Made by a program: the position numbers and the translations under genes. The notes beneath the pieces are model-generated. The model was not told where the DNA came from. It did no database searches and was given only the letters and a program-made list of their open reading frames with translations. DNA of 39,008 bases from Myxococcales bacterium. GTDB taxonomy: Bacteria; Myxococcota_A; Polyangia; Polyangiales; JAFGIB01. Shown in pieces: positions 3,070 through 29,926 of this stretch. The stretch spans positions 1-39,008 of the forward strand of contig JAPPOR010000414.1 in NCBI GenBank assembly GCA_028817905.1, given 5' to 3'. Every line of letters starts with the position of its first letter. Positions within the stretch are counted from its first letter, which is position 1.

Positions 3070-3099
3070 TCGTACGGCTAGGAGTGCTTGGAGGCTTTG

Positions 3100-3555
3100 G
3101 TGATCGGTGAATGGACTAAGGTAGCTTGTACGAGCGCCAAGAATGTTGCGACCACGATGGGGTTCGGGTCCTGCGAGGTTGGCGGTGGTGGAAGCGAAAT
3201 CCCGGATGGCCTGGGCGGGGCTTTTGTGCCACTCGTGGGCCAGCAAGCATCGATGCAGCTCGGCGTGATGGCTTCACCCCCGGATCAGGAATCGCTCGCG
3301 CGTATCATCCTGCAGATGGAGGATGATGAGGAGACCGATAGGGACTGCATCATGGATGCCATTGGCGAGCTTACCAACTGCATGGTCGGGCAGATGAAGG
3401 TTGCCATGCGGAAGGTCGACCCTTCACTCAAGATCGGTCTTCCTGTCTTCATCGAGGGTTCGGTGGAGGACATCGGCGGCGTTCAGCAGCGGGTCCTCGA
3501 AGCGCAGCTGGACGGCATCCCAGTCTCGATCGTCGTGCTCGCCAAGGATGGGTAG
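3100..3555 (+). CDS. cheX: CheX-like phosphatase, third in the cluster
   Basis: The protein is about 151 residues, close to a stand-alone CheX. It carries D-x3-E-x2-N in 'DAIGELTN' (D86, E90, N93 from this start), followed by 'CMVGQMKVAM', and ends in the strand 'GIPVSIVVLAKDG'. I chose GTG at 3100 because GGAGG lies 5 nt upstream. An in-frame TTG at 3088 with AGGAG only 3 nt upstream would add four residues. It lies 30 bp after the longer CheX-like gene and is probably co-transcribed with it. The motif identifies a CheY-P phosphatase family member; which CheY it serves is unknown. An intergenic repeat element begins 2 bp after its stop codon. Confidence 0.82.
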   Translation: MIGEWTKVACTSAKNVATTMGFGSCEVGGGGSEIPDGLGGAFVPLVGQQASMQLGVMASPPDQESLARIILQMEDDEETDRDCIMDAIGELTNCMVGQMKVAMRKVDPSLKIGLPVFIEGSVEDIGGVQQRVLEAQLDGIPVSIVVLAKDG

Positions 3556-4601: not shown

Positions 4602-6839
4602 GTGGAGGGGGTCGCCAGTCTGATTCAGAGGATCACCGCCGTTGTGACGGCGGATTCCCTATCACGCGCTGATTTCGACTCCTTAGAGGCCCTGTTCAAG
4701 ACGCTACTGGACTTCGGCTGCGCTGCCGCCGACGACGACCTGGTCGCCTGCGGTGAGGAGGGTCTCGAGCTGCTGAAGCGTGCCCGCGAAGCTGAGGACC
4801 TGGCGGAGATGAAGGAGCAGCTGGGTGAGTACGCGGCGGCTCTTGCCACGGCGTATGCCGAGGACCAGCCGCCCCAGGCGTCTGAGACCGTCGCGATGGG
4901 TTCAGACCACTCGGACCCAACGCTGCAAGGAGTTCCCGAGGTCCCGGCTGCGGTCGAGCCCAATGCTCCCGAATCTGAGCGGCCGGCACCTGTTCCACTG
5001 GTGGACGCCGCGATGGCGGCGGCGAACCTGTCGCTCCGAGAGGAGGAGTCGGAAGAAGACGAGCTGCGGGACCCGGAAATACTGGCCGAGTTCGTCATAG
5101 AGGCCAATGAACACCTGAGCGAGGCCGAAGGGCATCTGCTCGCATTGGAGACCGATCCGACCGACAAGGCCGCCCTGGGGGCCCTGTTTCGCGGCTTTCA
5201 TACCATCAAGGGACTCGCCGGATTCTTGGCCTTTCCGGAGGTCGAACGCTTGGCGCACGCGGCCGAGGATCTGCTCGCACTTGCCCGCGACGAGCGCGAC
5301 CGGCTCCCCGCCGGCGCATCGGACCTGATCTTCGAAGCCGCCGACTGCCTTCAACGGTCGATGGAGGCGATCAAGACGGCATTCGAAGCGGGCGAAGCCC
5401 CCCGGGGGATTGCGGCGCCGCAGTTGATTGAACGGATCAAAACTCTTTGGTCAGAGACGCGGGGTCCCGCGAGTGTCGCAGGGGGGCCGCCAGTGCCGGA
5501 GGCGATCCCGCGCCCCAGCGACGACCCAACGGACAGCGAGCCGAGCGCAGACCTCGGCAGCGACGCTCCCGGTGTAGAGCTGGGCTTCGCGAAGGTCCCT
5601 GGACCCGATGAGCCCCGTACGAATACCGGCCAGGCCGGTGGCAGCCGCGCAAAGCGGGAAACCATCCGGGTGGACGCGGAGCGTCTGGACCGACTCGTGG
5701 ACATGGTCGGCGAACTGGTGATCACCGAAAGCATGGTGACACGCGGTGTGGGGGAGCTTTCAGCAGCATCGAGTCTCGTGCGCCACCTGGGTCGTATGGA
5801 TAAGATCACCCGGGAGCTTCACGAACTCGCCGGTTCTCTGCGCATGATCCCGGTTCGGTCGACCTTCCGCAAGATGGCTAGGTTGGCCCGGGACGTTGCA
5901 CGGAAGTCGGGGAAACGTGTGTCGTTTGAAGTTCACGGAGAGGAGGCCGAGCTCGACAAGACTCTGGTCGACCGGATCGGGGACCCCCTTGTGCACATGG
6001 TGCGCAACGCGATCGATCACGGCCTAGAACCGAACCCTGAAGCGCGCGTCGCAGCCGGCAAGCCACCCGTCGGCAATGTCACGCTCCGGGCGCTTCATCG
6101 GGGAGGAAGCATCTACATCGAGGTGGAGGACGACGGCCGCGGCCTCGACCCGGAAAAGATTCTCTCACGTGCGGAAGAGCGGGGTCTAATACGACCGGGG
6201 GAGATCCTCGGAAAGAGGGACATCATTCGGCTTATTTGCGAGCCGGGCTTTTCCACTGCGGAACAGATTACCTCCATTTCCGGTCGCGGCGTTGGGATGG
6301 ACGTTGTCCGCCAGCAGATCGAGGCGATGAACGGTAGCCTCGAAGTAGAGTCGGAGCTCGGCCGCGGTACCTGTTTCTCCATGCAGCTGCCGCTGACCCT
6401 CGCTGTCATTGACGGCATGGTCATGCGGGTCGGAGAGGATCGCTTCGTTGTGCCGACGCTCTCGGTGGTTCGATTGGTCCAGCCAGGCTCCACCAATATC
6501 TGTACGGTTCTCGGGCGCGGAGAGGTTCTGAGGCTCGGCGACCATCTGGTGCCCGTGGCGCGACCGGATGAACTCTTCGAGATCGAGCTGAATCGCGACC
6601 GCGACCCGATGGCGATCGTTGTCGAAGTCGACCACGGGCAGGTCGCCATGTTGGTCGACGAGCTGTTGGGACAGCAGCAGGTCGTCATCAAGAGTCTGGG
6701 TGAAGGCCTTGGAGACGTCCCCGGCATCGCCGGCTGCGCAATTATGCCGGACGGGCGAGTGGGTCTTGTGCTCGACATCGGTGGCATCGTTAGAAGACGT
6801 CAGGCGGGGCTCAGCGAGCCCCCGCGAGAGGTCGGCTAG
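4602..6839 (+). CDS. cheA: Chemotaxis histidine kinase CheA (first copy)
   Basis: The 745-residue protein has an unusual N-terminal helical region (1-85) and acidic linker before the HPt (P1) domain at about 155-265, with phospho-His H200 in 'GFHTIKGLAGF'. No recognisable P2 domain is seen in the 280-350 linker. The dimerisation region is about 352-415 ('RLDRLVDMVGELVITESM'). The ATPase has N469/D472 in 'VRNAIDHG', 'DDGRG' (510-514), 'GRGVGMD' (561-567) and 'GRGT' (587-590). A CheW-like domain fills about 600-735. It should autophosphorylate under control of receptor and CheW, then pass phosphate to CheY and CheB. The GTG start has AAGGGGGGA just upstream. cheW follows after 28 bp. Confidence 0.95.
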   Translation: MEGVASLIQRITAVVTADSLSRADFDSLEALFKTLLDFGCAAADDDLVACGEEGLELLKRAREAEDLAEMKEQLGEYAAALATAYAEDQPPQASETVAMGSDHSDPTLQGVPEVPAAVEPNAPESERPAPVPLVDAAMAAANLSLREEESEEDELRDPEILAEFVIEANEHLSEAEGHLLALETDPTDKAALGALFRGFHTIKGLAGFLAFPEVERLAHAAEDLLALARDERDRLPAGASDLIFEAADCLQRSMEAIKTAFEAGEAPRGIAAPQLIERIKTLWSETRGPASVAGGPPVPEAIPRPSDDPTDSEPSADLGSDAPGVELGFAKVPGPDEPRTNTGQAGGSRAKRETIRVDAERLDRLVDMVGELVITESMVTRGVGELSAASSLVRHLGRMDKITRELHELAGSLRMIPVRSTFRKMARLARDVARKSGKRVSFEVHGEEAELDKTLVDRIGDPLVHMVRNAIDHGLEPNPEARVAAGKPPVGNVTLRALHRGGSIYIEVEDDGRGLDPEKILSRAEERGLIRPGEILGKRDIIRLICEPGFSTAEQITSISGRGVGMDVVRQQIEAMNGSLEVESELGRGTCFSMQLPLTLAVIDGMVMRVGEDRFVVPTLSVVRLVQPGSTNICTVLGRGEVLRLGDHLVPVARPDELFEIELNRDRDPMAIVVEVDHGQVAMLVDELLGQQQVVIKSLGEGLGDVPGIAGCAIMPDGRVGLVLDIGGIVRRRQAGLSEPPREVG

Positions 6840-6867
6840 CCGACACATCGTAGAACGCGAGGAAACC

Positions 6868-7407
6868 ATGGAACAGACATCGGTGAGCGCAGCCGCAAAA
6901 GAGGTGGGCGCGGCAGAAAAGAAGGGTGGAAAGTACCTTACGTTCGAGCTCGGCCAGGAAGAGTACGGGCTCGAGCTTCTGCGTGTCCGCGAGATCATCG
7001 CGCTGATGGACATCACGTCGGTTCCACTCACGCCGCCGTACGTGCGCGGTGTCATGAACCTCCGAGGAAAAGTGATTCCGGTTGTGGACCTGCGGTGCAA
7101 GTTTGGCATGGAGCGCACTGAGGATCACGACCGCAAATGCATCATCGTCGTGGACGTGCTGAAGGGCGACCAAGCGATTCAGATGAGCATTCTGGTGGAC
7201 GCGGTCTCTGAGGTCCTCCACATCGACGAGGCTGACATCGAAGTGGTGGCCTCGATCAATGCGGGGCTTGAAGCCGATTTCATCCAGGGCATGGCGAAGG
7301 CCAAGGGGGGCGTAAAGATCCTCCTCAATATTGATGCGGTCCTATCGAGTGTGGCGACCGTCGACATGCAGTCCATCGTGAACCAGGCGAACGACGTCGA
7401 AAGCTGA
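6868..7407 (+). CDS. cheW: CheW coupling protein
   Basis: The 179-residue protein is a single CheW domain after a short Ala/Lys-rich N-terminus. Typical signatures are '[21 protein letters not shown]', cut here to its two beta strands around 'FELGQEEYG', then '[18 protein letters not shown]' and '[10 protein letters not shown]'. It links MCPs to CheA. The ATG at 6868 is preceded by GAGGA at a good distance, whereas reading further upstream would run into the cheA coding region in another frame. It lies between cheA and the PAS-MCP gene, so these three probably form one signalling array. Confidence 0.94.
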
Positions 7408-7426: not shown

Positions 7427-10117
7427 ATGGCACAGCGAAAGAAGAAGCAAAACGTGCAGACGACCGTTGTGGAGCACCTTCCGGTTGCTGCCTTCGCCGT
7501 CGATGCGAGCGGCAAGATCGTGTATTGGAATGAGCGAGCCGCCCAAGCCACCGGTCGGGCCGCGGAGGATGTCGTCGGCAAGCTCGCCTGGCGTGCTTTC
7601 TACGACAAGAGGACGCCAACGCCGATCGATGACGCCTTGGACGGGGATGGCTCCATCGAGGAGCAGCTCACGTTCTATCGCACCGATGGGGAAGAGGTTA
7701 CGGCGACGCTGAGCGTGACGGCGGTGGCCGCGGGTGGCGATGTGGCTGCGGTGGCAACCCTGGCTGACTCAGGGGAGCAGGAGTCGGCCTGGAAGGGCGC
7801 GATCGAAGGGTCCGCGACCCCAATGATGATGATCGACCTGGACCGGGTGATTACCTACGCCAATCCGGCGACTGAGGCCTTGCTCTCCGCACATCTCGAA
7901 ACGTTCAAGACGGCCTTTCCCGGCTTCGACGCTTCGAGGGTCGTGGGTAGCTGCATCGACCAGTTCCACAAGCGCCCCGAGCACCAGGCACGGCTACTCG
8001 CTGACCCGAACAACCTTCCGCACAAGGCGGACATTCGCGTTGGGGAACTAACTTTTGAGTTAAACATTTCGGCTACGCGCGACGCTGCTGGCAACCACAT
8101 CGGAGCAACACTCGAATGGCAGGACGCGACGGCGGAGCGCGCCCAGGAGGATCAGGCAGTCCGGCTCCAATCGGCCATCGACGGATCGGGCACGCCCATG
8201 ATGATGGTCGACCTGGACCGAGTGATCACGTACGCCAATCCGGCAACCATGGAGCTGCTCCGCAAGAACCGCGAGACCTTTTCCCGAGCGTTCCCAGGCT
8301 TCGACCCGGAGGCCGTCCTGGGGGGCTGCATCGACCGGTTCCACAAGAACCCGGATCATCAAGCGCGAATTCTTGGCGACGCCCGCAATCTTCCATACAC
8401 CGCCGATATCAAGGTCGAGGATCTCACATTCGAACTGAAGGTGTCTGCGATGCGCGACGCGCGCGGAGAGCACATCGGTGCGTGCCTCGAATGGCAGGAC
8501 GTGTCTGATGCGCGGCAGAAGGCGGTGGACGCAGCGCGCATGAGCTCGCAGATCGAGGGCTCGGGTACCTCCGTCATGGTGTGCGATACGGACCGTATCA
8601 TCACCTACTTCAACCCCAAGCTGCGAGCCATGCTGAGCAAGTACGAGGCCGAACTTCGGTCGGTATTTCCGGGCTTTTCGGTGGACAAGCTCGTCGGTAC
8701 CAGCATCGATGACTTCCATCGCAACCCATCCCACCAGGCAGGTCTGATGACGGACTTCAACCGTCATCCGCTGGAGACAGAGGTCAGCGTCGGAGGGCTG
8801 GAGTTCGGGCTGAACTTGACGTCGCTCTATGATGCGAACGGCAAGCACATCGGCAACGCCGTCGAGTGGGTCGACAACAACGACCGCGCAACCTATCGCA
8901 ACGAGGTCAACAAGGTCATCGATGCCTGCAAGGCCGGTCAGCTGTCGGAGCGTGGCGAGACGAGCCGGCTCAACGACGTCTACCGCCCGATGATGGAAGG
9001 CATCAACGAGGTCATCGATGCGCTGGTCACGCCCGTTCAGGAGGCAGGTCGCGTCATCGCGAGGCTATCTGGCCAGGACCTGACCGCGCGCATGACGGGT
9101 GAGTATCAGGGTGACAACGCGGTCATGAAGAATAACATCAACCAAATGGCGGATGTGCTGGAGACCGCGCTCGTCGGGGTCGGCCAGACCGCCGACCAGG
9201 TCAAGGCCGCGAGCACCCAGATAAGCTCAGGAAGCCAGAGCCTGTCGCAGGCCACCAACGAGCAGGCGAGCTCGCTCGAGCAGGTGTCCAGTACGATCGA
9301 GGAGGTCAGCTCGATGACCGAGCAGAACGCGAGTAACGCCAACGAAGCCAAGGGCCTCGCGGACGCTGCTCGCGGGGGGGCCCTTGGTGGCAAGAAGTCG
9401 ATGGACAACCTTTCGGATGCGATTGCGCGCATCAAGGGCTCGTCCGACCAGACGGCCAAGATCGTCAAGACGATCGACGAGATCGCGTTCCAGACCAACC
9501 TCCTGGCACTGAATGCGGCGGTCGAGGCTGCTCGGGCGGGGGATGCCGGAAAGGGCTTTGCTGTAGTTGCGGAGGAGGTTCGGAGCCTTGCTCAGCGCAG
9601 CGCGGAGGCCGCCAAGAATACCGCCGAGCTGATCGAGGGCTCGGTCAAGAACGCCGACTCGGGTGTGCGACTCAGCGAGGAGGTGGCTCAGCAACTCGAC
9701 GAGATCGTGACCGGTTCGACCAAGGTGAACGACATCGTGGCCGAAATCGCGGCGGCGTCTAACGAGCAGGCCAAGGGCATAGGTCAGATCAACCAAGCGA
9801 TCGGTCAGATCAACAAGGTGACTCAGCAGAACGCGGCGAATTCCGAGCAATCCGCTAGCGCTGCCGAAGAGCTGGCGGCGCAGGCCGGACAGTTGTCGAC
9901 GATGGTCGGACGCTTCAAGGTCAGCCGCTCGGTGGGCGGCATGGCCGCCGGTGGGGAGGCGATGTTCGACGAGGCGCCGCGGGCTGCCGCACCCACCCTG
10001 TCTGTCGTCCGCAGTGAGGCCACCAGCAACGGTCACGGTCGTTCCTCGGCGGCGGGTGGAGGGCTCCGGCCGGAGGACGTCATCCCGCTTTCGGAAAGCG
10101 ATACTCGGGACTTCTGA
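7427..10117 (+). CDS. Cytoplasmic MCP with four PAS units, three in tandem
   Basis: The 896-residue receptor has no membrane segment. A first PAS spans about 12-114. Three modules at exact 125-residue spacing follow (about 118-242, 243-367, 368-492). Each has 'FPGF', a His pair in 'ID.FHK.P.HQ' (H181/H186, H306/H311, H431/H436) and a late Trp in 'EW.D' (W231, W356, W481). In Aer2-type PAS domains a helix His binds heme and a late-strand Trp contacts O2, so gas sensing is a reasonable inference. HAMP-like helices (about 492-600) lead to the signalling bundle with tip '[18 protein letters not shown]'. The tail ends in SDTRDF, a possible tether for adaptation enzymes. cheR follows after 16 bp. 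Confidence 0.92.
7778..8902 (+). repeat. Three tandem 375-bp PAS-encoding modules
   Basis: Within the MCP gene, three consecutive 375-bp units encode the PAS modules. Landmark residues recur exactly 125 codons apart: His at 181, 306 and 431, and Trp at 231, 356 and 481. Units one and two are most alike ('[16 protein letters not shown]'); the third is more diverged ('[17 protein letters not shown]'). This indicates internal duplication. Confidence 0.85.
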
Positions 10118-10133: not shown

Positions 10134-10964
10134 ATGGCGGCAGCAGGACGAGAGATCCAGCAGGAGCTAGACGAGGCAACGTTCGTCGCCATCCGTCGGA
10201 TCGTCTTCGAGCAAAGTGGCATATCGCTCAAGGGCGACAAGCGGACACTGGTGGCGGCGCGCCTCGGCAAGCGCATGCGGCGGTTGGGGATCCCCACGTA
10301 CCGGGCGTACTTGCAGCGGCTGCGAGATTGCAGGACCGGGGCGGAGCTGACGTTTCTGCTAGACGCCATCTCTACCAACGTGACCTCTTTCTTTCGGGAG
10401 GCTGACCACTTCGACCTGCTGCGGTGTGCGTATGGCGAGTGGCGCGGAAAGGGCCAAACCCGCTTCCGAATCTGGTGTGCTGCGTCTTCTAGCGGAGAAG
10501 AACCCTATTCGATGGGAATCACGCTGCACGACGTGGGCGTGCGCGGGTGCGACGTCAAAATTCTCGGGACCGATATCTCGACAGAGATTCTTCGCAAGGC
10601 CATGCGGGCGCGCTATGCCAAGAAGTCCATCGAGCCCGTGCCTGTGCTTCTGCGAGACCGCTATTTCAAGCGGCTGGCGCCGGATGAGTACGAAGTCACG
10701 CCAGCTGTTCGAGACATGGTTGTCTTCAGACAAACCAACCTTAGCAAGCTTCCGACCCCTCTGAAGGGGCCGCTCGACGTGGTCTTCTGCCGCAATGTGA
10801 TGATCTATTTCGAGGATGCGCTTCGGCGCAGGTTGGTCGAGGAGTTCGAGCGCCTGCTGAAGCCCGAAGGATATCTGGTGGTAGGACACAGTGAGAGTCT
10901 CGTGGGCATGCAGGGGGGACTCAAGATGGTCCGACCGTCGGTCTATCGGAAGGGTGGCGCATGA
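10134..10964 (+). CDS. cheR: MCP methyltransferase CheR (first copy)
   Basis: The 276-residue enzyme transfers methyl groups from S-adenosylmethionine to receptor glutamates. An N-terminal helical CheR domain (about 12-80, ending 'ISTNVTSFFREADHF') precedes the SAM-binding domain with 'CAASSSGEEPYSM', 'ILGTDIST' and 'DVVFCRNVMIYF'. The late 'GYLVVGHSESL' also matches the family. Its stop overlaps the cheB start by four bases (ATGA), indicating translational coupling of methylase and demethylase. The likely substrate is the PAS-MCP just upstream. Confidence 0.96.
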   Translation: MAAAGREIQQELDEATFVAIRRIVFEQSGISLKGDKRTLVAARLGKRMRRLGIPTYRAYLQRLRDCRTGAELTFLLDAISTNVTSFFREADHFDLLRCAYGEWRGKGQTRFRIWCAASSSGEEPYSMGITLHDVGVRGCDVKILGTDISTEILRKAMRARYAKKSIEPVPVLLRDRYFKRLAPDEYEVTPAVRDMVVFRQTNLSKLPTPLKGPLDVVFCRNVMIYFEDALRRRLVEEFERLLKPEGYLVVGHSESLVGMQGGLKMVRPSVYRKGGA

Positions 10965-12004
10965 CTATTCGCGTGCTGGCCATCGACGACTCCGCGGTGG
11001 TCCGATCGGTTCTCACACGGATCCTCTCCCGGGACCCAGAAATCGAGGTGGTGGGCACGGCCCCCGACCCGTTTGTGGGCCGCGACAAGATCGTGCAACT
11101 GCAGCCAGACGTGGTCCTGTTGGACCTCGAGATGCCGCGCATGGACGGGATCACCTTTCTGCGCAAGCTAATGAGCGCCAAGCCGATGCCCGTACTGGTC
11201 GTGTCATCGCTGACCAGAGACAACAGCAAGATCATGCTCGAGGCGCTCTCGGCAGGCGCGGTTGACGTGGTGTCAAAGCCCCGTGGCGCGCACACCTTGG
11301 AAGAGGTTGGCGTTGAGCTGATCGAAAAGATCAAGTCGGCTCGCCACGCCCGGGTCCAGCGCCGTGCGGCGTCCACGAGCGTTCAGCAGCCCGCCAAACT
11401 CGCCCACTTCGACGCGTCTCACCAGGTGGTTGCGATTGGCGCATCCACTGGTGGAACCCGGGCCCTTGAGGATGTGCTGATGGGGCTGCCGGCGGGGGCT
11501 CCGGCGACGGTGGTCGTGCAGCACATGCCGGAGGAGTTTACCCGCAGCTTCGCCCAACGACTCGATGAGCTCGGGGCCATGCGAGTCAAGGAAGGGGAGC
11601 ACGGTGACATCTTGGCGCCGGGTACCATGGTGATTGCGCCGGGTAATCAACATATGGAGCTTGTGCGTTCGGGCGCGCTCTTCAAGCTGCGGCTCCACGA
11701 TGCTGCGCCGGTGCGGCGTCATCGGCCCTCCGTCGACGTGCTCTTCCAGTCGGTGGCGGTGGCGGCGGGCCGGAACGCGCTCGGTGTACTGTTGACTGGT
11801 ATGGGTGACGACGGTGCTCGGGGCCTTCTAGCGATGCGCAAGGCCGGCGCGAAGACGGTTGCGCAAGACGAGGCCTCTTCGGTGGTGTATGGCATGCCCA
11901 AGGCCGCGGTGGATATTGGTGCTGCAGACAAGCAGCTTGCCCTCGGGCAGGTCGCGCCGGCGATCATGAACTGGGCCACCAGTGCCCGTGCAAAGGTGGG
12001 GTGA
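10961..12004 (+). CDS. cheB: Receptor methylesterase CheB (first copy)
   Basis: The 347-residue enzyme has an N-terminal receiver (D9/D10, phospho-acceptor D55 in 'VLLDLEMPRMDG', K107) and a C-terminal methylesterase. The catalytic triad is visible as S162 in 'IGASTGG', H188 in 'VVQHMP' and D284 in 'TGMGDDG'. It removes methyl groups from MCP glutamates, and can deamidate glutamines, when phosphorylated by CheA. It overlaps cheR by four bases and directly abuts the next gene, whose GTG follows its TGA without a gap. Confidence 0.96.
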   Translation: MTIRVLAIDDSAVVRSVLTRILSRDPEIEVVGTAPDPFVGRDKIVQLQPDVVLLDLEMPRMDGITFLRKLMSAKPMPVLVVSSLTRDNSKIMLEALSAGAVDVVSKPRGAHTLEEVGVELIEKIKSARHARVQRRAASTSVQQPAKLAHFDASHQVVAIGASTGGTRALEDVLMGLPAGAPATVVVQHMPEEFTRSFAQRLDELGAMRVKEGEHGDILAPGTMVIAPGNQHMELVRSGALFKLRLHDAAPVRRHRPSVDVLFQSVAVAAGRNALGVLLTGMGDDGARGLLAMRKAGAKTVAQDEASSVVYGMPKAAVDIGAADKQLALGQVAPAIMNWATSARAKVG

Positions 12005-15775: not shown

Positions 15776-16687
15776 ATGCGCAAGGAATTCCTGCTTCCAA
15801 CGGACATGGTGAACGCCCGGGGTGAGGCTCATTTTCGGACGTTGCTGGGCTCGTGCGTCAGCGTCTGCTTGTCCAATGTGCGGCGAAACATCTTCGCGAT
15901 GAACCACTTCATGCTCCCCACCAATCCCGGACGGGATGACGTGGGGAGGTATGGGGACACTGCCACGGACCGTGTGGTTCGAACGCTCATGGCGGTGGAT
16001 CCAGATGTGAGCCATTACTGGGTCGGGGTGTACGGCGGAGCGTCCGTGACGGGGCATCTCGGTGCGGAGAGCGGCATCGGCGAGCGGAACGTCAAAATGG
16101 CGATAGCGGTGCTGCGCCGGCACGGGCTCGTGGTTCGTGAATCGGACGTGGGCGGCCGACTTGGCAGGAAGGTCGACTTTTGGACAGCCGAAAACCGTGT
16201 GCACTGTCGCTCGATCGAGGAGGACCGCGTGGCTCGCATGGGGGGAGCGGCGAAGCCGAGCCGACGCGGCCAGGGCTTGCGGGTTCTCGTAGTCGACGAC
16301 TCCGCCGCGGCCAGAGCGGTGATCCGGGCGGGGCTGGAGCAGGCGGGCATGCACGTCATCGGGGAGGCCGCGAATGCGTTCGATGCCCGCGAGTTGATCG
16401 TCCGGGATCGGCCAGACGTGGTGACCTTGGATCTCGAGATGCCCATGATCAACGGGCTCGCATTCCTGCGTCAGCTCAACAAGCATTTCCCGCTTCCGGT
16501 CGTTGTGGTCTCTTCGAGTGCGCCGTCCGGATCGGAGCGCGCGCGCGAAGTTCTCGAGGCCGGAGCCCAGGCCGTCGTCGACAAGGCCGACCTGGACATG
16601 TCCCGCGGAACGACGAACGTGGGACGGGTGTTGGTGCCGCGAGTCAAGCTGGCCGGCCTATCACGGCTTGTCAGCGACGGCCGTTGA
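15776..16687 (+). CDS. cheD: CheD fused to a receiver domain
   Basis: The 303-residue protein has two domains. Residues 1-155 are CheD, the receptor glutamine deamidase: C27 in 'RTLLGSCVSVCL' and H44 in 'MNHFMLP' are the expected catalytic Cys and His, and 'GGASV', 'IGERNV' follow. Residues 167-285 are a receiver with D174/D175, acceptor D219 in 'VTLDLEMPMING', S247 and K270. This receiver resembles the CheB N-terminus ('VVVVSSSAPSGS') but no methylesterase follows. In other bacteria CheD is controlled by binding CheC; here phosphorylation of an attached receiver may control it instead (inference). It lies directly after the second cheA, a likely phosphodonor, and before a CheY gene. Confidence 0.92.
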   Translation: MRKEFLLPTDMVNARGEAHFRTLLGSCVSVCLSNVRRNIFAMNHFMLPTNPGRDDVGRYGDTATDRVVRTLMAVDPDVSHYWVGVYGGASVTGHLGAESGIGERNVKMAIAVLRRHGLVVRESDVGGRLGRKVDFWTAENRVHCRSIEEDRVARMGGAAKPSRRGQGLRVLVVDDSAAARAVIRAGLEQAGMHVIGEAANAFDARELIVRDRPDVVTLDLEMPMINGLAFLRQLNKHFPLPVVVVSSSAPSGSERAREVLEAGAQAVVDKADLDMSRGTTNVGRVLVPRVKLAGLSRLVSDGR

Positions 16688-19395: not shown

Positions 19396-21663
19396 ATGGA
19401 TGAGCTTGACGACATAGTTCGGGAGTTCCTGGTAGAGAGCTCGGAGAATCTCGACCAGCTCGAGCGCGACCTCGTTCAGCTGGAGGACACACCTGACGAC
19501 CCGGACCTTCTGGCGAGCGTCTTCCGAACCATCCATACGATCAAGGGCACCTGTGGGTTTCTCGGCTACACGAAGCTTCAAGGAATCACCCACGTGGGTG
19601 AGAACCTGCTGAGCAAGGTCCGGGATGGGGATCTTCGTCTGAGCGGCGACGTCGCCACGGTCCTGTTGGACATGGTCGACGCCGTTCGCGAGATCTTGGC
19701 GCAGATCGAGGGGACCGGGACAGAGGGGGACACGAACTACACCGCTTTGGTGGCGCGTCTGGAAGCGCTCGTCGAAGATGCCCCGGCTGATGCGCTCGAG
19801 ATCTCGCCAGAGCTTCTGCGATCTCCCAGTGCCAGCAACGAAGCGCTGTCCGAGGAATCAGTACTCTCATCGGGCCCCGAAAGTGCGGAAACGGTCGAAG
19901 CGGTGTCCGTCGGTCAGCCGCCGCCCTTGCCGGCTGCACCGCACATCCAGAAACCCGCTCCACGGTCCGACGGCGGCCAGGCCCCCCGGCAGGGCGTGCA
20001 AGCGGTGGATTCCAGTATTCGCGTTCACGTGGACCTGCTGGACCGTTTGATGAACCTGGTCGGCGAGTTGGTACTGGCGCGCAATCAGATCGTGCGCCTC
20101 GCGGAGGAGCTCCGCGACCCAGCGTTGTTAGCCACCACCCAGCGCCTCAATCAGGTTACCAGCGAGTTGCAGGAAGGCGTCATGACGACTCGCATGCAGC
20201 CGATCGGGACCCTCTGGACCAAGTTGCCGCGGGTCGTGCGGGAGCTCGCAAGGGGCTTCTGCAAGCAAGTGCGGGTGGAGATGGAGGGCGAGGAAACGGG
20301 GCTCGATAAGACCCTGATCGAGGCCATCAAGGACCCGCTGACGCATCTGGTCCGAAACGCTGTCGACCATGGGCTCGAGCTGCCCGACGAACGGATGGCC
20401 GCATGCAAGGAACCGGAAGGTACGCTGCGCCTGCGTGCCTATCACGAGGGGGGACAGGTCAACCTCGAGATTTCGGATGACGGTGCGGGGATCGACCCCG
20501 TCAAGCTCATCGCACGTGCCGTCGAACGTGGGCTCATTGCGTCGGAACGTGCGGAAAAGCTCACCAAACGCCAGGCCCTCAACCTGCTGTTCTTGCCAGG
20601 ACTGTCGACCGCCCGAAAAGTGACCAACATTTCCGGTCGCGGCGTTGGCATGGACGTCGTGAAGAACAACGTCGAGCGCATTGGTGGATCCATCGACATT
20701 GCGACCGAGGTGGGTGAGGGCACGACGTTTCGCCTCAAGATTCCCCTCACCTTGGCGATCGTCCCCGCCCTCTTCGTCCGGGCTGGTGACCAGCGCTACG
20801 CGATTCCACAGGTGAACCTGCTCGAGCTGGTGCGTCTGGAGCGGGAGGAGGAACTCGAGGAGATCCATGGCTCGCCGGTATTTCTTCTGCGCGGGCGTCT
20901 GCTACCGATTCTGAACCTGGGTAGAGAGCTGGGGCTGCTCGACGTCGCGGATACTGGAGAACGTGGCGTGCGGCACATCCTGGTGCTACAGGCGGAGGAC
21001 CAGCGCTTCGGATTGGTGGTCGATGACGTGCAGGACACGGAGGAGATCGTCGTCAAGCCGCTGGGCGAACATGTCAAGGAGATCGGGGCGTTCGCGGGGG
21101 CCACGATCATGGGTGACGGCCAGGTGGCGCTGATCCTGGATGTCGTCGGGCTCGCGCAGCGAGGGGGCATCGCGCGTCGCGTGGAGAACAGCGAGCCGCC
21201 TGATGCGCTGGGTGACAGTCTTGCGTGCATCGACGAATCGACGTCGCTGCTGATAGCGGAGGGGGCTGCGCGCGTGTGCGCCGTTCCGCTCGAGCGCGTG
21301 CAGCGCCTCGAGGAGATCAGTACCGAGCGTGTGGAGTTCGTGGGTGACCAGGCGGTGTTCCAGTATCGCGGTGGAATCCTTCCGCTGATCTACCTCGATG
21401 ACGCGGATGCGGATGACATCGGTGTGGAGGCACTGCAGGTGGTCGTCTTCGACTACCGTGGGCACTCCGTCGGGGTCGTCGTCCGGAGGATCGTTGATAT
21501 CCTGTCGGAACACATAGACGTTCGAGGTGTAGGTATCCGCCCAGGGGTCGCGGGGACTGCGATCATCGGCGACTGCGTGGTCGAGGTGATCGACCTGGAT
21601 GGGCTAGCGGATCTTCGCGGCCTGCAGCTGTCGGGGCAAACGGCGCTTCGGGAGGCAGGATGA
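19396..21663 (+). CDS. cheA: Chemotaxis kinase CheA with two CheW domains (third copy)
   Basis: The 755-residue protein has an HPt domain with H47 in 'RTIHTIKGTCGFLG', a proline-rich linker (about 140-200), a dimerisation region ('LLDRLMNLVGELVLARNQ'), and an ATPase with 'VRNAVDHG', 'DDGAG', 'GRGVGMD' and 'GEGT'. A first CheW-like domain covers about 456-590 and a second, more diverged one about 607-745 ('RGGILPLIYLDDAD', 'VVVDIV'-like strands). CheA normally has one such domain, so the second may add a binding face for CheW rings or other partners. The ATG has only a weak SD. Its stop overlaps the next cheW start (ATGA). Confidence 0.94.
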   Translation: MDELDDIVREFLVESSENLDQLERDLVQLEDTPDDPDLLASVFRTIHTIKGTCGFLGYTKLQGITHVGENLLSKVRDGDLRLSGDVATVLLDMVDAVREILAQIEGTGTEGDTNYTALVARLEALVEDAPADALEISPELLRSPSASNEALSEESVLSSGPESAETVEAVSVGQPPPLPAAPHIQKPAPRSDGGQAPRQGVQAVDSSIRVHVDLLDRLMNLVGELVLARNQIVRLAEELRDPALLATTQRLNQVTSELQEGVMTTRMQPIGTLWTKLPRVVRELARGFCKQVRVEMEGEETGLDKTLIEAIKDPLTHLVRNAVDHGLELPDERMAACKEPEGTLRLRAYHEGGQVNLEISDDGAGIDPVKLIARAVERGLIASERAEKLTKRQALNLLFLPGLSTARKVTNISGRGVGMDVVKNNVERIGGSIDIATEVGEGTTFRLKIPLTLAIVPALFVRAGDQRYAIPQVNLLELVRLEREEELEEIHGSPVFLLRGRLLPILNLGRELGLLDVADTGERGVRHILVLQAEDQRFGLVVDDVQDTEEIVVKPLGEHVKEIGAFAGATIMGDGQVALILDVVGLAQRGGIARRVENSEPPDALGDSLACIDESTSLLIAEGAARVCAVPLERVQRLEEISTERVEFVGDQAVFQYRGGILPLIYLDDADADDIGVEALQVVVFDYRGHSVGVVVRRIVDILSEHIDVRGVGIRPGVAGTAIIGDCVVEVIDLDGLADLRGLQLSGQTALREAG

Positions 21664-22115
21664 GGCACGCCGACGAGGTCTGCACGTTCACCCTGGGCGA
21701 GCTCACCTTCGGTGTGGCTGTCAACCAGATTCGCGAGGTACTCCGGGCCCAACCGATGACCCGAGTGCCGCTGGCGTCCCCGATGGTGGCCGGTCTGATC
21801 AACCTGCGCGGGCAGATCGTCACTGCGCTGGACCTTCGTGCGCGCTTCGAGTTGGAGCCACGGAAGCCCGGCGCGCCATCGCTCAACGTCGTTGTCAAGA
21901 CAACGGAGAGCGCAGTTAGCTTGATCGTGGACGACGTCGGCGACGTCATCGAACTGCTTCCGGCCAAGGTAGAGGAGGCCCCTAGCACGCTGCGTGGTCC
22001 AGTCAGGGAGCTCGTAAAGAGCGTGTTCAAACACGACAGTGGCCTGATTCTACTATTGGACGTCCCCCGGGCGGTATCCATTGGTGGCGAAACGGACGAC
22101 GGAGTAGCCGCATGA
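21660..22115 (+). CDS. cheW: CheW coupling protein (second copy)
   Basis: The 151-residue protein is a CheW domain: '[21 protein letters not shown]', represented by the beta pair around 'TLGELTFGV', then '[19 protein letters not shown]' and '[12 protein letters not shown]'. It overlaps the third cheA by four bases upstream and the soluble MCP by four bases downstream, so the three products should be made together and form one array. It has few residues beyond the core domain. Confidence 0.94.
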
Positions 22116-23728
22116 CGAGCGCGGGCGAATTCGGTCTGGGGAGCGAAACCACGCCCGCCATAGGCGAGTTGCTTGAGAGTATTCTCACGTCGGCAGCGTT
22201 CGAGGATGTGACTGCCAGTGAGATCACGGCACTTTCGGATGCCCTGCAGGAATGCCTGAGCGGTTCCCTGTCCGGTGACGCGACGGCGTCCGAGCTGTGG
22301 GAGCGGTTGGGCTTTCGCCCGGATCGCGCACGCGCGATCGCCCAGGTGCTCGTCGAAACCGGCGTGGCGGGCGGCGAGCAAGGGGATGACGCGGTGGATC
22401 CGGCGAGCGCAGGGGCCTCGCCCGCCGCGGATGTCCCCAAGAAGACAGCAAATGACAATGCCCGGGAGGGCAGGACAACGCACAAGCGGAACAAGTCAGG
22501 TCGCAAAGAAATGGCAAAACGTTCAAAGACTGCGGCGAGCGCGGCCGAAGAAGCCTCGGATAGCCAAACGACCCTCGACCAGATGGAGGCTTTCTTCGAC
22601 GTGATCGAAGCGCCGGTCATCATCGCGGACGAGGACCAGACCATCGTGCACATCAACCGGGCGGGCCTCGACCTCCTCGAGCCCGTTTCCGATGAGCTCG
22701 AGCAGCTGTGCGGGCTTTCGCTGGGCAGCTTGATCGGCGCAGCGCTGTACGACCTCATGGGCGGCCATACTGTGGGCAAGCGTCGCTTGAAGTCCCTCCC
22801 GAAGCGCACCTGCGAAGCGGCCATGGTGCTCGGCGGGCGGAAGGTCACTGTGAAGGTGAACGCCTTCGAGGCGCCGTTCTGGAGCTTCTCTGGGGCGCTA
22901 GCGACTCTTTCGAGCGAGGAGGACGACACGCCACAGGAAGGCACCCAAAAGGTAGCTGGCCGGGGAGCCACCGTTCAGCTCGCTGCCAGCGCTGAAGAGC
23001 TTCTGAGCGTAAGCCATCGGCTCGCCTCTACGGCAGAGGAGACGTCGTCGCAAGCGCAGATCGTGTCTGCTGCTTCTGAGGAGGTAAGTCAGAATCTCCA
23101 GACAGTCGCGGGCGGCATGGAAGAGCTCAGCCACAGCATCTCGGAGATCGCGCGAAGTGCGAGCAAGGCCTCGACTGTTGCGGCTACGGGCGTGGAGCTG
23201 GCCGAGACGACCAATCACACGGTCGCGAAACTCGGGGACAGCAGCAGCGAGATCGGCAAGGTCATCAAGGTCATCACGACGATCGCCCAGCAGACGAACC
23301 TGCTGGCTCTCAATGCGACGATCGAAGCGGCCCGGGCGGGCGAGGCTGGCAAGGGCTTTGCTGTGGTGGCCAACGAGGTCAAGGAGCTTGCCAAGGAAAC
23401 CGCCACGGCATCCGAAGACATTAGCCGCAAGGTCGAGGCGATTCAGACGGGCACATCGGACGCTGTCGCGGCCATCAGCGAGATCAACAACATAGTCAAC
23501 CAAATCAACGAGATTCAGCTGAACATCGCTGCCGCCGTCGAGCAGCAAACCGCGACGGCTGGAGAGATTGGGCGAAATATCGGTGGCGCGGCGCGAGGAA
23601 GTTCGGAAATCACCGACAACATTTCGGCGGTGGCGGCGGCCGCCCGCAGCACGAGTGAGGGTGCGATGGACACAAAGCGTGCCGCCGAGGACCTGAATCG
23701 GCTCGCTTCGCAGTGGGGGGGCAAGTGA
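22112..23728 (+). CDS. Soluble PAS-containing MCP
   Basis: The 538-residue receptor lacks membrane segments. Residues 1-90 are an unfamiliar helical region, followed by a basic, low-complexity linker (about 105-140). A PAS-like domain spans about 155-270 ('[22 protein letters not shown]'; note the strand '[11 protein letters not shown]'). The signalling bundle follows, with tip '[19 protein letters not shown]' and '[14 protein letters not shown]'. The input signal is unknown. It overlaps cheW upstream by four bases, so it is the natural receptor for the third CheA. An internal ATG at 22511 could give a shorter form without the N-terminal region, but its SD is weak. Confidence 0.9.
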
Positions 23729-23813
23729 ACCCGACCGTACGTAGCGCACCCCGGGAAGGGCGGGCTGTTGAGGGCTCCGTGCTGGCATCGTACGCCGCTA
23801 TGAGGAGTGGGGC

Positions 23814-24893
23814 ATGAGTGCGATTCGCGTAGTGCTGGCGGACGATTCGGTGGTCGTTCGCCGCATCATGGCGGATGTCTTCGCCCGCGCCGAGGGCTTT
23901 GAGTTGGTCGCGAACGTCGCCAACGGTCGCGAAGCCGTTGAGATCGTGGACGAGCTGGACCCGGATGTGGTGGTTCTCGACATTGAGATGCCCGAGATGG
24001 ATGGGATCGAGGCGCTGCAGGCCATTCGCCAGCGGCGGCCTCGCCTGCCCGTCGTCATGTTCAGCACGGTGGCGCGGCGGGGTGCCGCGGCAACCATGGA
24101 GGCGCTGGCGCTTGGCGCCAGTGACTATGTGACCAAGCCCGGCACGCTGAGCGGTGTGCGGGAGGCGATCGAGTCCATGGAGCAGGAGCTGCTGCCCCGT
24201 TTGAAGGCCCTCGGAAGGAGGCCCCGTGCGCTGGGCAGTGCGCCTCCGGCTGTTAGGCCGAGTGGTCCGGGCGGTGCGAAGCGTTGCATCGCTGGAGGAG
24301 CGGAGGTTGTCGTCGTAGGAGCCTCAACCGGTGGCCCCGTGGCAGTGAGCAAGTTGATCGGCCAGTTGCCGTCCGACTTCGACGTTCCGGTCGTCGTCGT
24401 ACAGCATATGCCGCCGCTCTTTACGAAGCACTTCGCCGAGCAGCTCGCGCAGCGCGTCAGGCTCCCCGTGGCAGAGGTCGAGGATGGTCAGCCGGTTCAG
24501 GGAGGGGAGATCTGGATCGGGCGTGGAGGTCACCATGTGGAGCTCACCCGGGGCGCGAACGGGGAGCTGCTCTTGAAGCTGACCGACGACGAGCCCGTCC
24601 ACTTCTGTCGTCCGGCGGTCGACGTGCTCTTCAAGTCGACCGCTCGCGTGTGTGGTCGCAGGAGTCTGGCTGTCGTCATGACTGGCATGGGCCAGGACGG
24701 CCTGGAGGGGGCTCGAAGCATCGTCGACGCGGGCGGTGTCGTCGTCGCCCAGGATGAGGCGAGCTCGGTGGTATGGGGCATGCCCGGCAGCGTCGCGCGT
24801 GCTGGGCTTGCCACCTATCTCGGCGACCCGGAGGTCCTTGCGCAGCATGTAGCACTTGTCGCCGGGTCTCCGCCTGTCAGGCAGTCGGGCTAG
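23814..24893 (+). CDS. cheB: Receptor methylesterase CheB (second copy)
   Basis: The 359-residue enzyme has a receiver (D10/D11, D56 in 'VVLDIEMPEMDG', K108) and a methylesterase domain with S171 in 'VGASTGG', H198 in 'VVQHMP' and an Asp in 'TGMGQDG'. The ATG follows a good GAGGAG. It lies 85 bp after the soluble MCP gene and 3 bp before cheR, so it completes the adaptation pair of the second system. Its linker (about 130-160) is rich in Arg, Pro and Gly. Confidence 0.96.
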   Translation: MSAIRVVLADDSVVVRRIMADVFARAEGFELVANVANGREAVEIVDELDPDVVVLDIEMPEMDGIEALQAIRQRRPRLPVVMFSTVARRGAAATMEALALGASDYVTKPGTLSGVREAIESMEQELLPRLKALGRRPRALGSAPPAVRPSGPGGAKRCIAGGAEVVVVGASTGGPVAVSKLIGQLPSDFDVPVVVVQHMPPLFTKHFAEQLAQRVRLPVAEVEDGQPVQGGEIWIGRGGHHVELTRGANGELLLKLTDDEPVHFCRPAVDVLFKSTARVCGRRSLAVVMTGMGQDGLEGARSIVDAGGVVVAQDEASSVVWGMPGSVARAGLATYLGDPEVLAQHVALVAGSPPVRQSG

Positions 24894-24896
24894 AGC

Positions 24897-25718
24897 GTGG
24901 AGTCCTCTACCATCCAGCGAGAGGACTTCGCCTGGCTTTGCCAGATGTTGCGGGATGAGACCGCCATCGTTGTGGACGCGGCGAAGGCCTATTTGGTGGA
25001 AGCCCGGCTGCTCCCCTTGGCGCGCTCCAAGGGAATGCCGGTAGCCGAGCTGATCCGTCGCGCCAGAGCGGACACCCGCGCGGAGAAGGAGCGTCGCCAG
25101 GTAATTGAGGCGATGACCACGAACGAGACCAGTTTCTTTCGAGACCGGAGGATCTTCGACTCGATCACAGACCAGGTGGTCGGGCGGGTGCTCGAGGAAC
25201 AGAAAGGTGAGATCAGGATCTGGTGCGCGGCTGCCTCTACCGGGCAGGAACCCTACAGCCTTGCGATGGCCCTCGCGAGCAGGTACCCCAGCGATCAGTC
25301 GCGCGTGCGAATCGTCGCATCCGACATCGACACCCAGGCGTTGGCTCGCGCGCGGCTCGCGGAGTACTCGCAGCTCGAGTTGAGCCGGGGCCTTCCGTCG
25401 TGCATGAAGAAGTACTTCGACCGACAGGGCGATCGATGGCGTATTCGCCAGGAGATTCGCGAGATGGTGGAGTTCAGGCAGCTCAACCTCGTAAAGCCGT
25501 GGCCATCGGTGGCTCGCATGGACCTGGTGCTGGTTCGCAACGTGTTGATCTACTTTGAGCCGAAGGTAAAGGCCGAAATTCTGACACGCATGGCGCGCAA
25601 GGTCCTACCAACAGGGTTCATCATTCTGGGCAGCACGGAGAGCGCGCTAGGTTGCGACGTTCCGCTCCGGGCGCAGAAGATCGGACAATGCACCGTGTAC
25701 AGCAGAACAGCGAGCTAG
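24897..25718 (+). CDS. cheR: MCP methyltransferase CheR (second copy)
   Basis: The 273-residue enzyme has the N-terminal CheR helices (ending 'MTTNETSFFRDRRIF') and the SAM domain with 'CAAASTGQEPYSLAM', 'IVASDIDT' and 'DLVLVRNVLIYF'. 'GFIILGSTES' near the end matches the family. It starts at a GTG 3 bp after cheB and should methylate the soluble MCP of this operon. The EAL-HDOD gene follows after 28 bp. Confidence 0.95.
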   Translation: MESSTIQREDFAWLCQMLRDETAIVVDAAKAYLVEARLLPLARSKGMPVAELIRRARADTRAEKERRQVIEAMTTNETSFFRDRRIFDSITDQVVGRVLEEQKGEIRIWCAAASTGQEPYSLAMALASRYPSDQSRVRIVASDIDTQALARARLAEYSQLELSRGLPSCMKKYFDRQGDRWRIRQEIREMVEFRQLNLVKPWPSVARMDLVLVRNVLIYFEPKVKAEILTRMARKVLPTGFIILGSTESALGCDVPLRAQKIGQCTVYSRTAS

Positions 25719-28585: not shown

Positions 28586-29926
28586 CTAGGCCAGGCCTCC
28601 AAGCATGGCAGCGAGCTGGGCCCCCTGCCCTTGAGCAAGGCTCACAGCTGTCTCCATAGCCGTGAACTCCGCGCGGATGCGATCCTCGAAGTCCCCGATC
28701 CGCAGCTCCATGCGTGCGATCTGGTCGTCGAGGTTATCGATGCGTAGGTCGATGCCCTTCTTGCGGGTGGTGATCAGGCCATCGGTCGAGTTCGTCAGCT
28801 GGTCGATGGTCTCATCCATGAGCGCCATCAGGCCGTCAGTACTCGTACTCTCATCGCCTGCCAGTAACTTCGAGACCGCTTCCGGGTCATCGGCGAGCGC
28901 CTCTTCGAGCTCCGTGCGCTCGAACTCGAGCTTGCCGGCGCGGTCGATCGAGACCCCGATACTAGCCAGGTAGTTGTAGGGGGAGCTAAGGCCGTCGACG
29001 GTGTCTATCAGCGTGTTGCGCAGGTTGCGTGACACGGTCCGTACGGTGGAGTCACTCGCCAGGCTGTCCCCCTCCTGGGAGTCCCGTGACAGTTCATAGG
29101 CGACGCGTTCGTTTACCGCATTGTAGGCGTTGACGTACTCCTGGACCAGATCCGCGAGGGCATCGGGGTCGCGCTGGACAGTGACCTCGGCGGCTCCCGT
29201 GGTCTGGGCCCTGAGATCGAGCGTGACACCGGAGATGGCGTCCGTGATCAGGTTGGTGGAGCGCGAGACGTCAAAGCCGTCTACGACCAACTCGGCATCT
29301 TGGGCCGCCTGAACCTCCGCGAGGTTGAGCCCGATGCCCGTGTCGCCAGTGAACGCGATTGTCTGATCCGCGCCGGTGTTGTTACCGGTGATCTGGAGCC
29401 GGTAGCCGAGGTCGGTCGACAGCACGCCGGCTGTCACGTCGGCACCCGACGCGTTGATCGCCGCTGCCAATGAATCCAGGGTCGTGTTGGCGTCCACGTC
29501 GACGGTGATTTCGCTCTCCGACCCAACCGTGATGCCCAGCGTTCCGGCGGTTAGCAGTCCCGCCTCGTCGCTCGCGGAGAAGGGGTCGCTGTAGGAGCGC
29601 TCGGCTTTGGCCAGCTCCGAGACCGTGATGCTATAGGTGCCAAGCGACGCCCCGCCGTCCGCTGTCACAGTGAGGGCGTCGTCCTGGCTGGAACTGGCGC
29701 TCGAGGTCAGAACCTTGGTGCGCTCGTCGAGCGCTTCACCCTTGGTCTGAAGGGTGCTGAGCAGTCCGGAGAGCGTATCGAGTTTGGACTGCTTGCCCCG
29801 CAGGTCCGTCTGCTGCTTCTCCATGCGGGTGATCGGCTGGCGTTCGATCTGAACCAGGCCACGAACGATCGAGGCGGTGTCGATGCCTGACGCGATGCCG
29901 CTGAATGAGAAGAGCGGTTCAACCAT
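28586..29926 (-). CDS. fliD: Flagellar filament cap protein FliD
   Basis: The 446-residue protein has the conserved N-terminal 'FSGIASGIDTASIVRGLVQIE' start (seen as 'SGIASGIDT') and helical region for filament binding, a central Ala/Thr/Asp-rich variable part with 'ITGNNTGADQTIAFTG', and a C-terminal coiled region ('RIDNLDDQIARMELRIGDF'). It caps the filament and helps flagellin fold outside the cell. The C-terminus is rich in Gln, Ala and Gly ('GQGAQLAAMLGGLA'). It follows fliC after a strong hairpin and precedes fliS by 37 bp. No separate promoter was recognised. Confidence 0.94.
   Translation of the reverse strand: MVEPLFSFSGIASGIDTASIVRGLVQIERQPITRMEKQQTDLRGKQSKLDTLSGLLSTLQTKGEALDERTKVLTSSASSSQDDALTVTADGGASLGTYSITVSELAKAERSYSDPFSASDEAGLLTAGTLGITVGSESEITVDVDANTTLDSLAAAINASGADVTAGVLSTDLGYRLQITGNNTGADQTIAFTGDTGIGLNLAEVQAAQDAELVVDGFDVSRSTNLITDAISGVTLDLRAQTTGAAEVTVQRDPDALADLVQEYVNAYNAVNERVAYELSRDSQEGDSLASDSTVRTVSRNLRNTLIDTVDGLSSPYNYLASIGVSIDRAGKLEFERTELEEALADDPEAVSKLLAGDESTSTDGLMALMDETIDQLTNSTDGLITTRKKGIDLRIDNLDDQIARMELRIGDFEDRIRAEFTAMETAVSLAQGQGAQLAAMLGGLA

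Follow-up and report, generated by a model that had tools for sequence, protein, structure and literature searches.

The window, the whole 39,008-nucleotide stretch of DNA analysed here from a Myxococcales bacterium (contig JAPPOR010000414.1), encodes an Aer2-like soluble chemoreceptor that is very probably a cytoplasmic sensor of O2 or another gas in which three b-type heme PAS sensors are arranged in series. Its domains, assigned by Pfam and alignment, follow the order PAS0-PAS1-PAS2-PAS3-di-HAMP-MCP signalling domain, and its gene is located between cheW and cheR in a cheA-cheW-mcp-cheR-cheB cluster (Table 1). Family, residue positions, domain order, gene neighbourhood and the phylogeny of the PAS units were read from the sequence. 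A set of three heme sites already has a precedent among Aer2 receptors, as the tri-PAS-heme architecture was published in 2022 for V. vulnificus Aer2; the window receptor is a slightly rearranged form with a distinct N-terminal domain. As judged by its sequence, it places tri-PAS-heme receptors well outside the Vibrionaceae.

Table 1. Coordinates in the window of the receptor gene, its domains, its predicted heme-pocket residues and the neighbouring che genes
Feature	Position	Strand	Basis
CheA, upstream of receptor	4602..6839	+	Pfam
CheW, directly upstream of receptor; CheW domain at ORF residues 105-244	6619..7407	+	Pfam
Aer2-like soluble chemoreceptor gene, 896 aa	7427..10117	+	ORF list, translation, Pfam, hydropathy
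PAS0, residues 14-114, ordinary PAS without heme-His motif	7466..7768	+	Pfam PF00989/PF08448/PF13426
PAS1, Aer2-type heme-PAS unit, residues 118-242; H181, L212, W231	7778..8152	+	repeat alignment, PDB match
H181 codon, predicted heme ligand of PAS1 (PaAer2 H234 position)	7967..7969	+	alignment to 4HI4/3VOL
W231 codon, PAS1 (PaAer2 W283 position)	8117..8119	+	alignment
PAS2, Aer2-type heme-PAS unit, residues 243-367; H306, L337, W356	8153..8527	+	repeat alignment, PDB match
H306 codon, predicted heme ligand of PAS2 (PaAer2 H234 position)	8342..8344	+	alignment to 4HI4/3VOL
W356 codon, PAS2 (PaAer2 W283 position)	8492..8494	+	alignment
PAS3, Aer2-type heme-PAS unit, residues 368-492; H431, L462, W481; adjoins HAMP	8528..8902	+	repeat alignment, PDB match
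H431 codon, predicted heme ligand of PAS3 (PaAer2 H234 position)	8717..8719	+	alignment to 4HI4/3VOL
W481 codon, PAS3 (PaAer2 W283 position)	8867..8869	+	alignment
di-HAMP region, residues 493-579	8903..9163	+	Pfam PF18947 (HAMP_2) 519-579; alignment to relatives
MCP signalling domain, residues 644-799	9356..9823	+	Pfam PF00015, 1.3e-47
CheR, directly downstream of receptor	10134..10964	+	Pfam
CheB	10961..12004	+	Pfam
CheD fused to receiver domain, one ORF	15776..16687	+	Pfam

Nucleotides 7778-8902 (+) are in frame with the ORF 7427-10117 and code for residues 118-492, which consist of three PAS units of exactly 125 residues each that align without gaps; PAS_8 matches from Pfam fall within this array. 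Across the three units 42/125 positions are invariant. PAS1 and PAS2 share 77/125 residues (62% identity), and PAS3 shares 50/125 with PAS1 and 49/125 with PAS2 (39-40%). The motifs ID.FH..P.HQ and EW.D are kept in every unit, the latter as EWQD in PAS1 and PAS2 and as EWVD in PAS3 (the FH-motif stretches, of 22 and 11 protein letters, are not shown), and H181/H306/H431 as well as W231/W356/W481 are spaced exactly 125 apart. The original prediction of three tandem PAS units repeating at 125 residues, each with both motifs, is thus borne out down to the individual residues; it had left out a fourth PAS domain at residues 14-114. When each unit was searched alone against the PDB, the only significant matches were V. 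cholerae 6CEQ and P. aeruginosa 3VOL and 4HI4, with best E-values against Aer2 PAS of 3e-23 (PAS1), 2e-25 (PAS2) and 6e-24 (PAS3), so the triple repeat is far beyond chance. A chance repeat or a misread frame is ruled out by the in-frame, ungapped units and by the Aer2 matches of each.

H181, H306 and H431 align without gaps to chain position 66 of 4HI4, counted as residue 234; counting along the same chain, the second His of the motif is residue 239, the Leu of F-x-L residue 264 and the Trp residue 283. All three units keep the P. aeruginosa Aer2 (PaAer2) positions H234, L264 and W283 (L212/L337/L462 for the Leu). L264 and W283 of PaAer2 are residues of the distal pocket. H234 of PaAer2 is the heme ligand (PMC13401364). 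The first His of the motif, and not a pair, is therefore the predicted ligand, as it aligns to H234 and the second His to H239. The assignment to Aer2-type units with three potential heme sites, made earlier from the sequence, accordingly agrees with the intact positions, and of the His pair and Trp then proposed for heme binding and O2 response, the first His (on H234) and the Trp (on W283) stand as predictions, and the second His, at the H239 position, does not stand as a ligand. Bis-His ligation by the pair is unsupported, since only the equivalent of H234 is a known ligand. The deposited chain of 6CEQ has Leu at the Trp position, which is perhaps an engineered change; its relative in Candidatus Enterovibrio escacola has Trp. 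Among the units of the relatives the His is kept in 101/104 and the Trp in 102/104, counts that are biased, as the search for relatives relied in part on patterns that include those motifs.

An AlphaFold2 model of residues 118-612, built with 11 relatives (pLDDT 84), consists of three PAS folds joined by helices, the arrangement of the domains relative to each other not being reliable (pTM 0.41). Foldseek superposes the array model on 4HI4 with a TMt of 0.88 at 1.4 A, on 6CEQ with 0.91 (43% identity) and on 3VOL with 0.86. Pocket placement was judged by alignment and superposition scores only; by these no His appears to lie away from the ligand pocket, the outcome that had been named as evidence against the heme sites.

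Two HAMP domains stand between PAS3 and the MCP domain, the second scored by Pfam (519-579) and the first placed only by alignment with relatives. No clear transmembrane helix was seen in the 896-residue receptor (maximum 19-residue hydropathy 1.6, inside the PAS0 strands), which together with the MCP domain fits the soluble MCP that had been proposed. A C-terminal WxxF tether was not found: the receptor ends in SESDTRDF, without WEEF. Most HAMP-bearing relatives have WEEF or a similar C-terminus and others are without tether like the window receptor; the tether is a common, not a defining, feature of Aer2-type PAS-heme chemoreceptors. Signalling by Aer2 needs a conserved motif that joins PAS to HAMP (PMC13401364). 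In the window receptor the junction from PAS3 to HAMP reads DxN (N485), where most units have DxT, and DxS follows PAS2, so coupling could differ. The DxN at the HAMP-proximal PAS is encoded around window 8879-8881, and DxN also occurs in the closest relative found, L115 (EWSDLN).

In the proposed mechanism, the FH-motif His (H181, H306, H431) of each unit would hold the heme and the EW-motif Trp (W231, W356, W481) would stabilise bound O2. On ligand binding the beta-sheet would shift, and this change would travel via the inter-PAS helices to PAS3 and onward across both HAMPs to the tip of the MCP domain, and the tip would control the adjacent CheA through CheW; CheR, CheB and CheD would reset the receptor by methylation. 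Heme occupancy, O2 response, the order of the relay and the sign of the output are predicted. PAS3, which adjoins HAMP, is likely the output unit, and PAS1 and PAS2 more likely act as modulators than as partners in a set of three equal sensors.

It is possible, if somewhat doubtful, that only PAS3 or one unit senses gas, with PAS1 and PAS2 serving as spacers or dimerisation elements or binding heme without signalling. In one gammaproteobacterial relative (L008) an ordinary PAS that lacks the His motif forms the middle unit, L115 has one unit fewer, and PAS1 of V. vulnificus Aer2 reportedly adds little to O2 signalling, the wording of the review being ambiguous on this point; against this, PAS1 and PAS2 have diverged substantially (62% identity) and yet both keep His, Leu and Trp intact, a pattern suggestive of selection on the pocket. 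The graded or cooperative gas sensing that the original prediction derived from three sites, which would differ in affinity or bind cooperatively and so widen or sharpen the O2 response, is quite unlikely. Three intact candidate sites are present, the low identity of PAS3 to PAS1 and PAS2 (only 39-40%) means that its affinity could differ, and cooperative ligand binding is reported for globin-coupled sensors, another class of heme O2 sensors (PMC12805357). However, the close relationship of PAS1 and PAS2 speaks for similar affinity, and the three heme-PAS units of V. vulnificus Aer2 are similar in O2 affinity and act in a hierarchical relay in which PAS2 modulates PAS3 (PMC13401364; Stuffle et al. 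2022 as described there). Graded or cooperative sensing thus does not follow from the presence of three sites.

Least probable, and very unlikely, is that the units bind no heme, or bind another ligand or flavin, and retain His and Trp for structure. Sequence cannot prove heme binding, and the fold of PAS0 in this receptor is that of an ordinary PAS close to flavin PAS domains, but among solved structures each of the three units matches heme-PAS domains best, and the ligand His is in place in each. Three heme-PAS sensors in series remain the preferred reading.

For PAS0, Pfam PF00989 scores 2.3e-29 over the whole receptor protein with its best stretch at residues 14-104. A PDB sequence search with the first 117 residues gave weak hits only and no Aer2 match, and the nearest fold to the PAS0 model (pLDDT 77) is the NifL FAD-PAS with a TM of 0.74 and 24% identity (Foldseek). 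PAS0 is ruled out on sequence as a fourth heme site, being without FH motif and without Aer2 match. Homologues of PAS0 are present in other proteins of the same order, and the domain occupies the N-terminal slot that holds a globin (PF00042) in the relatives L002-L005, L007 and L008. A tentative and rather improbable idea is that the receptor combines two inputs, with PAS0, in an exchangeable slot (a globin in most close relatives), acting as a sensor of the redox or flavin type and the heme-PAS array having been lengthened independently in this lineage by duplication of the upstream unit, with a single HAMP-proximal unit and the DxN junction.

The closest relative found (genome G178, receptor L115) is 53% identical over 485 residues; its gene, cut by the contig end, encodes PAS0, a pair of heme-PAS units, di-HAMP and MCP. 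As L115 has only two heme-PAS units, PAS1 and PAS2 appear to be a recent tandem duplication. One tree puts the P. aeruginosa Aer2 PAS apart from the group of units to which those of the window receptor belong, and this PAS was the outgroup in a further unit tree. There PAS1 and PAS2 group together as sisters (99/92), the one upstream unit of L115 branches outside this pair (99/87), and PAS3 groups with the HAMP-adjacent unit of L115 (100/98). The triple array thus probably arose in the window lineage by duplication of the upstream unit after the split from L115. The evidence for this is moderate, since AU tests against the two alternatives gave p = 0.03 and 0.047; loss of one unit in L115 and later homogenisation of the array could also be the history. 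In the order, 18/184 genomes, the one with the window included, have a match at E <= 1e-15. In a genome of the same family a globin and a GAF domain are combined with two PAS units (L047).

Triple arrays with 125-residue spacing were found in L002 (KSB1) and in L003-L005 (Gammaproteobacteria); Candidatus Enterovibrio escacola (L006) has a triple array spaced about 126-128 residues, and arrays spaced 120 residues occur in Bdellovibrionota and others. L003-L005 also share the cluster order, which is cheA-cheW-mcp-cheR-cheD-cheB in L003 and L005 and cheW-mcp-cheR-cheD-cheB in L004. Unlike the window receptor, L002-L005, L007 and L008 carry the N-terminal globin, and those from Gammaproteobacteria have WEEF or WDEF at the C-terminus. 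L007 and L008 (Gammaproteobacteria) have a globin and two heme-type units; in L008:5488-8307 the first and last units of the array keep the His, and the ordinary PAS without it lies in the middle. A globin followed by three heme-type PAS units is encoded at L002:5413-7920, L003:5377-8265, L004:1162-4242 and L005:5482-8316, and each of these chemoreceptors may hold four heme sites, distributed over two unrelated folds. Chemoreceptors with globin and PAS have been noted in silico for Corallococcus Cc_4972 (PMC6194562), and in the literature no text was found on a globin with a triple heme-PAS array in one chemoreceptor.

The Aer2 proteins of V. vulnificus, V. cholerae and P. aeruginosa are PAS-heme O2 sensors (PMC13401364). 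Like V. vulnificus Aer2, the window receptor has three tandem N-terminal heme-PAS units in one chemoreceptor, here by sequence and fold only; unlike it, and compared by description only, it has the fourth, non-heme PAS ahead of the array and the DxN junction. Its PAS1 and PAS2 seem to stem from a separate duplication specific to the lineage, the receptor of Candidatus Enterovibrio escacola being the Vibrionaceae stand-in for V. vulnificus Aer2; the sister grouping of PAS1 and PAS2, with the single upstream unit of L115 outside, points to a possibly separate route to three units. V. cholerae Aer2 (6CEQ), in which two HAMPs and an MCP domain follow the PAS units (PMC7184735), has the solved PAS that is nearest in sequence to each of the three units and shares the order PAS, di-HAMP, MCP, but it has two PAS units and no PAS0. 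P. aeruginosa Aer2/McpB/TlpG (3VOL, 4HI4) agrees in the H234, L264 and W283 positions, in a di-HAMP after PAS and in being soluble, but has a single PAS, flanked N-terminally by three HAMPs (PMC13401364, PMC7184735). The natural variants, with two versus three units and with globin versus PAS in the N-terminal slot, could be used to probe why Aer2 receptors stack heme sensors.

The window holds three cheA genes and two cheX-like genes (1294-1863 -, 3088-3555 +). A second che cluster lies directly downstream (window 19396-25718) and consists of cheA (two stretches of CheW domain), cheW, mcp (weak PAS), cheB and cheR; it is followed by an HDOD-EAL gene and then by fliD on the other strand at 28586-29926.
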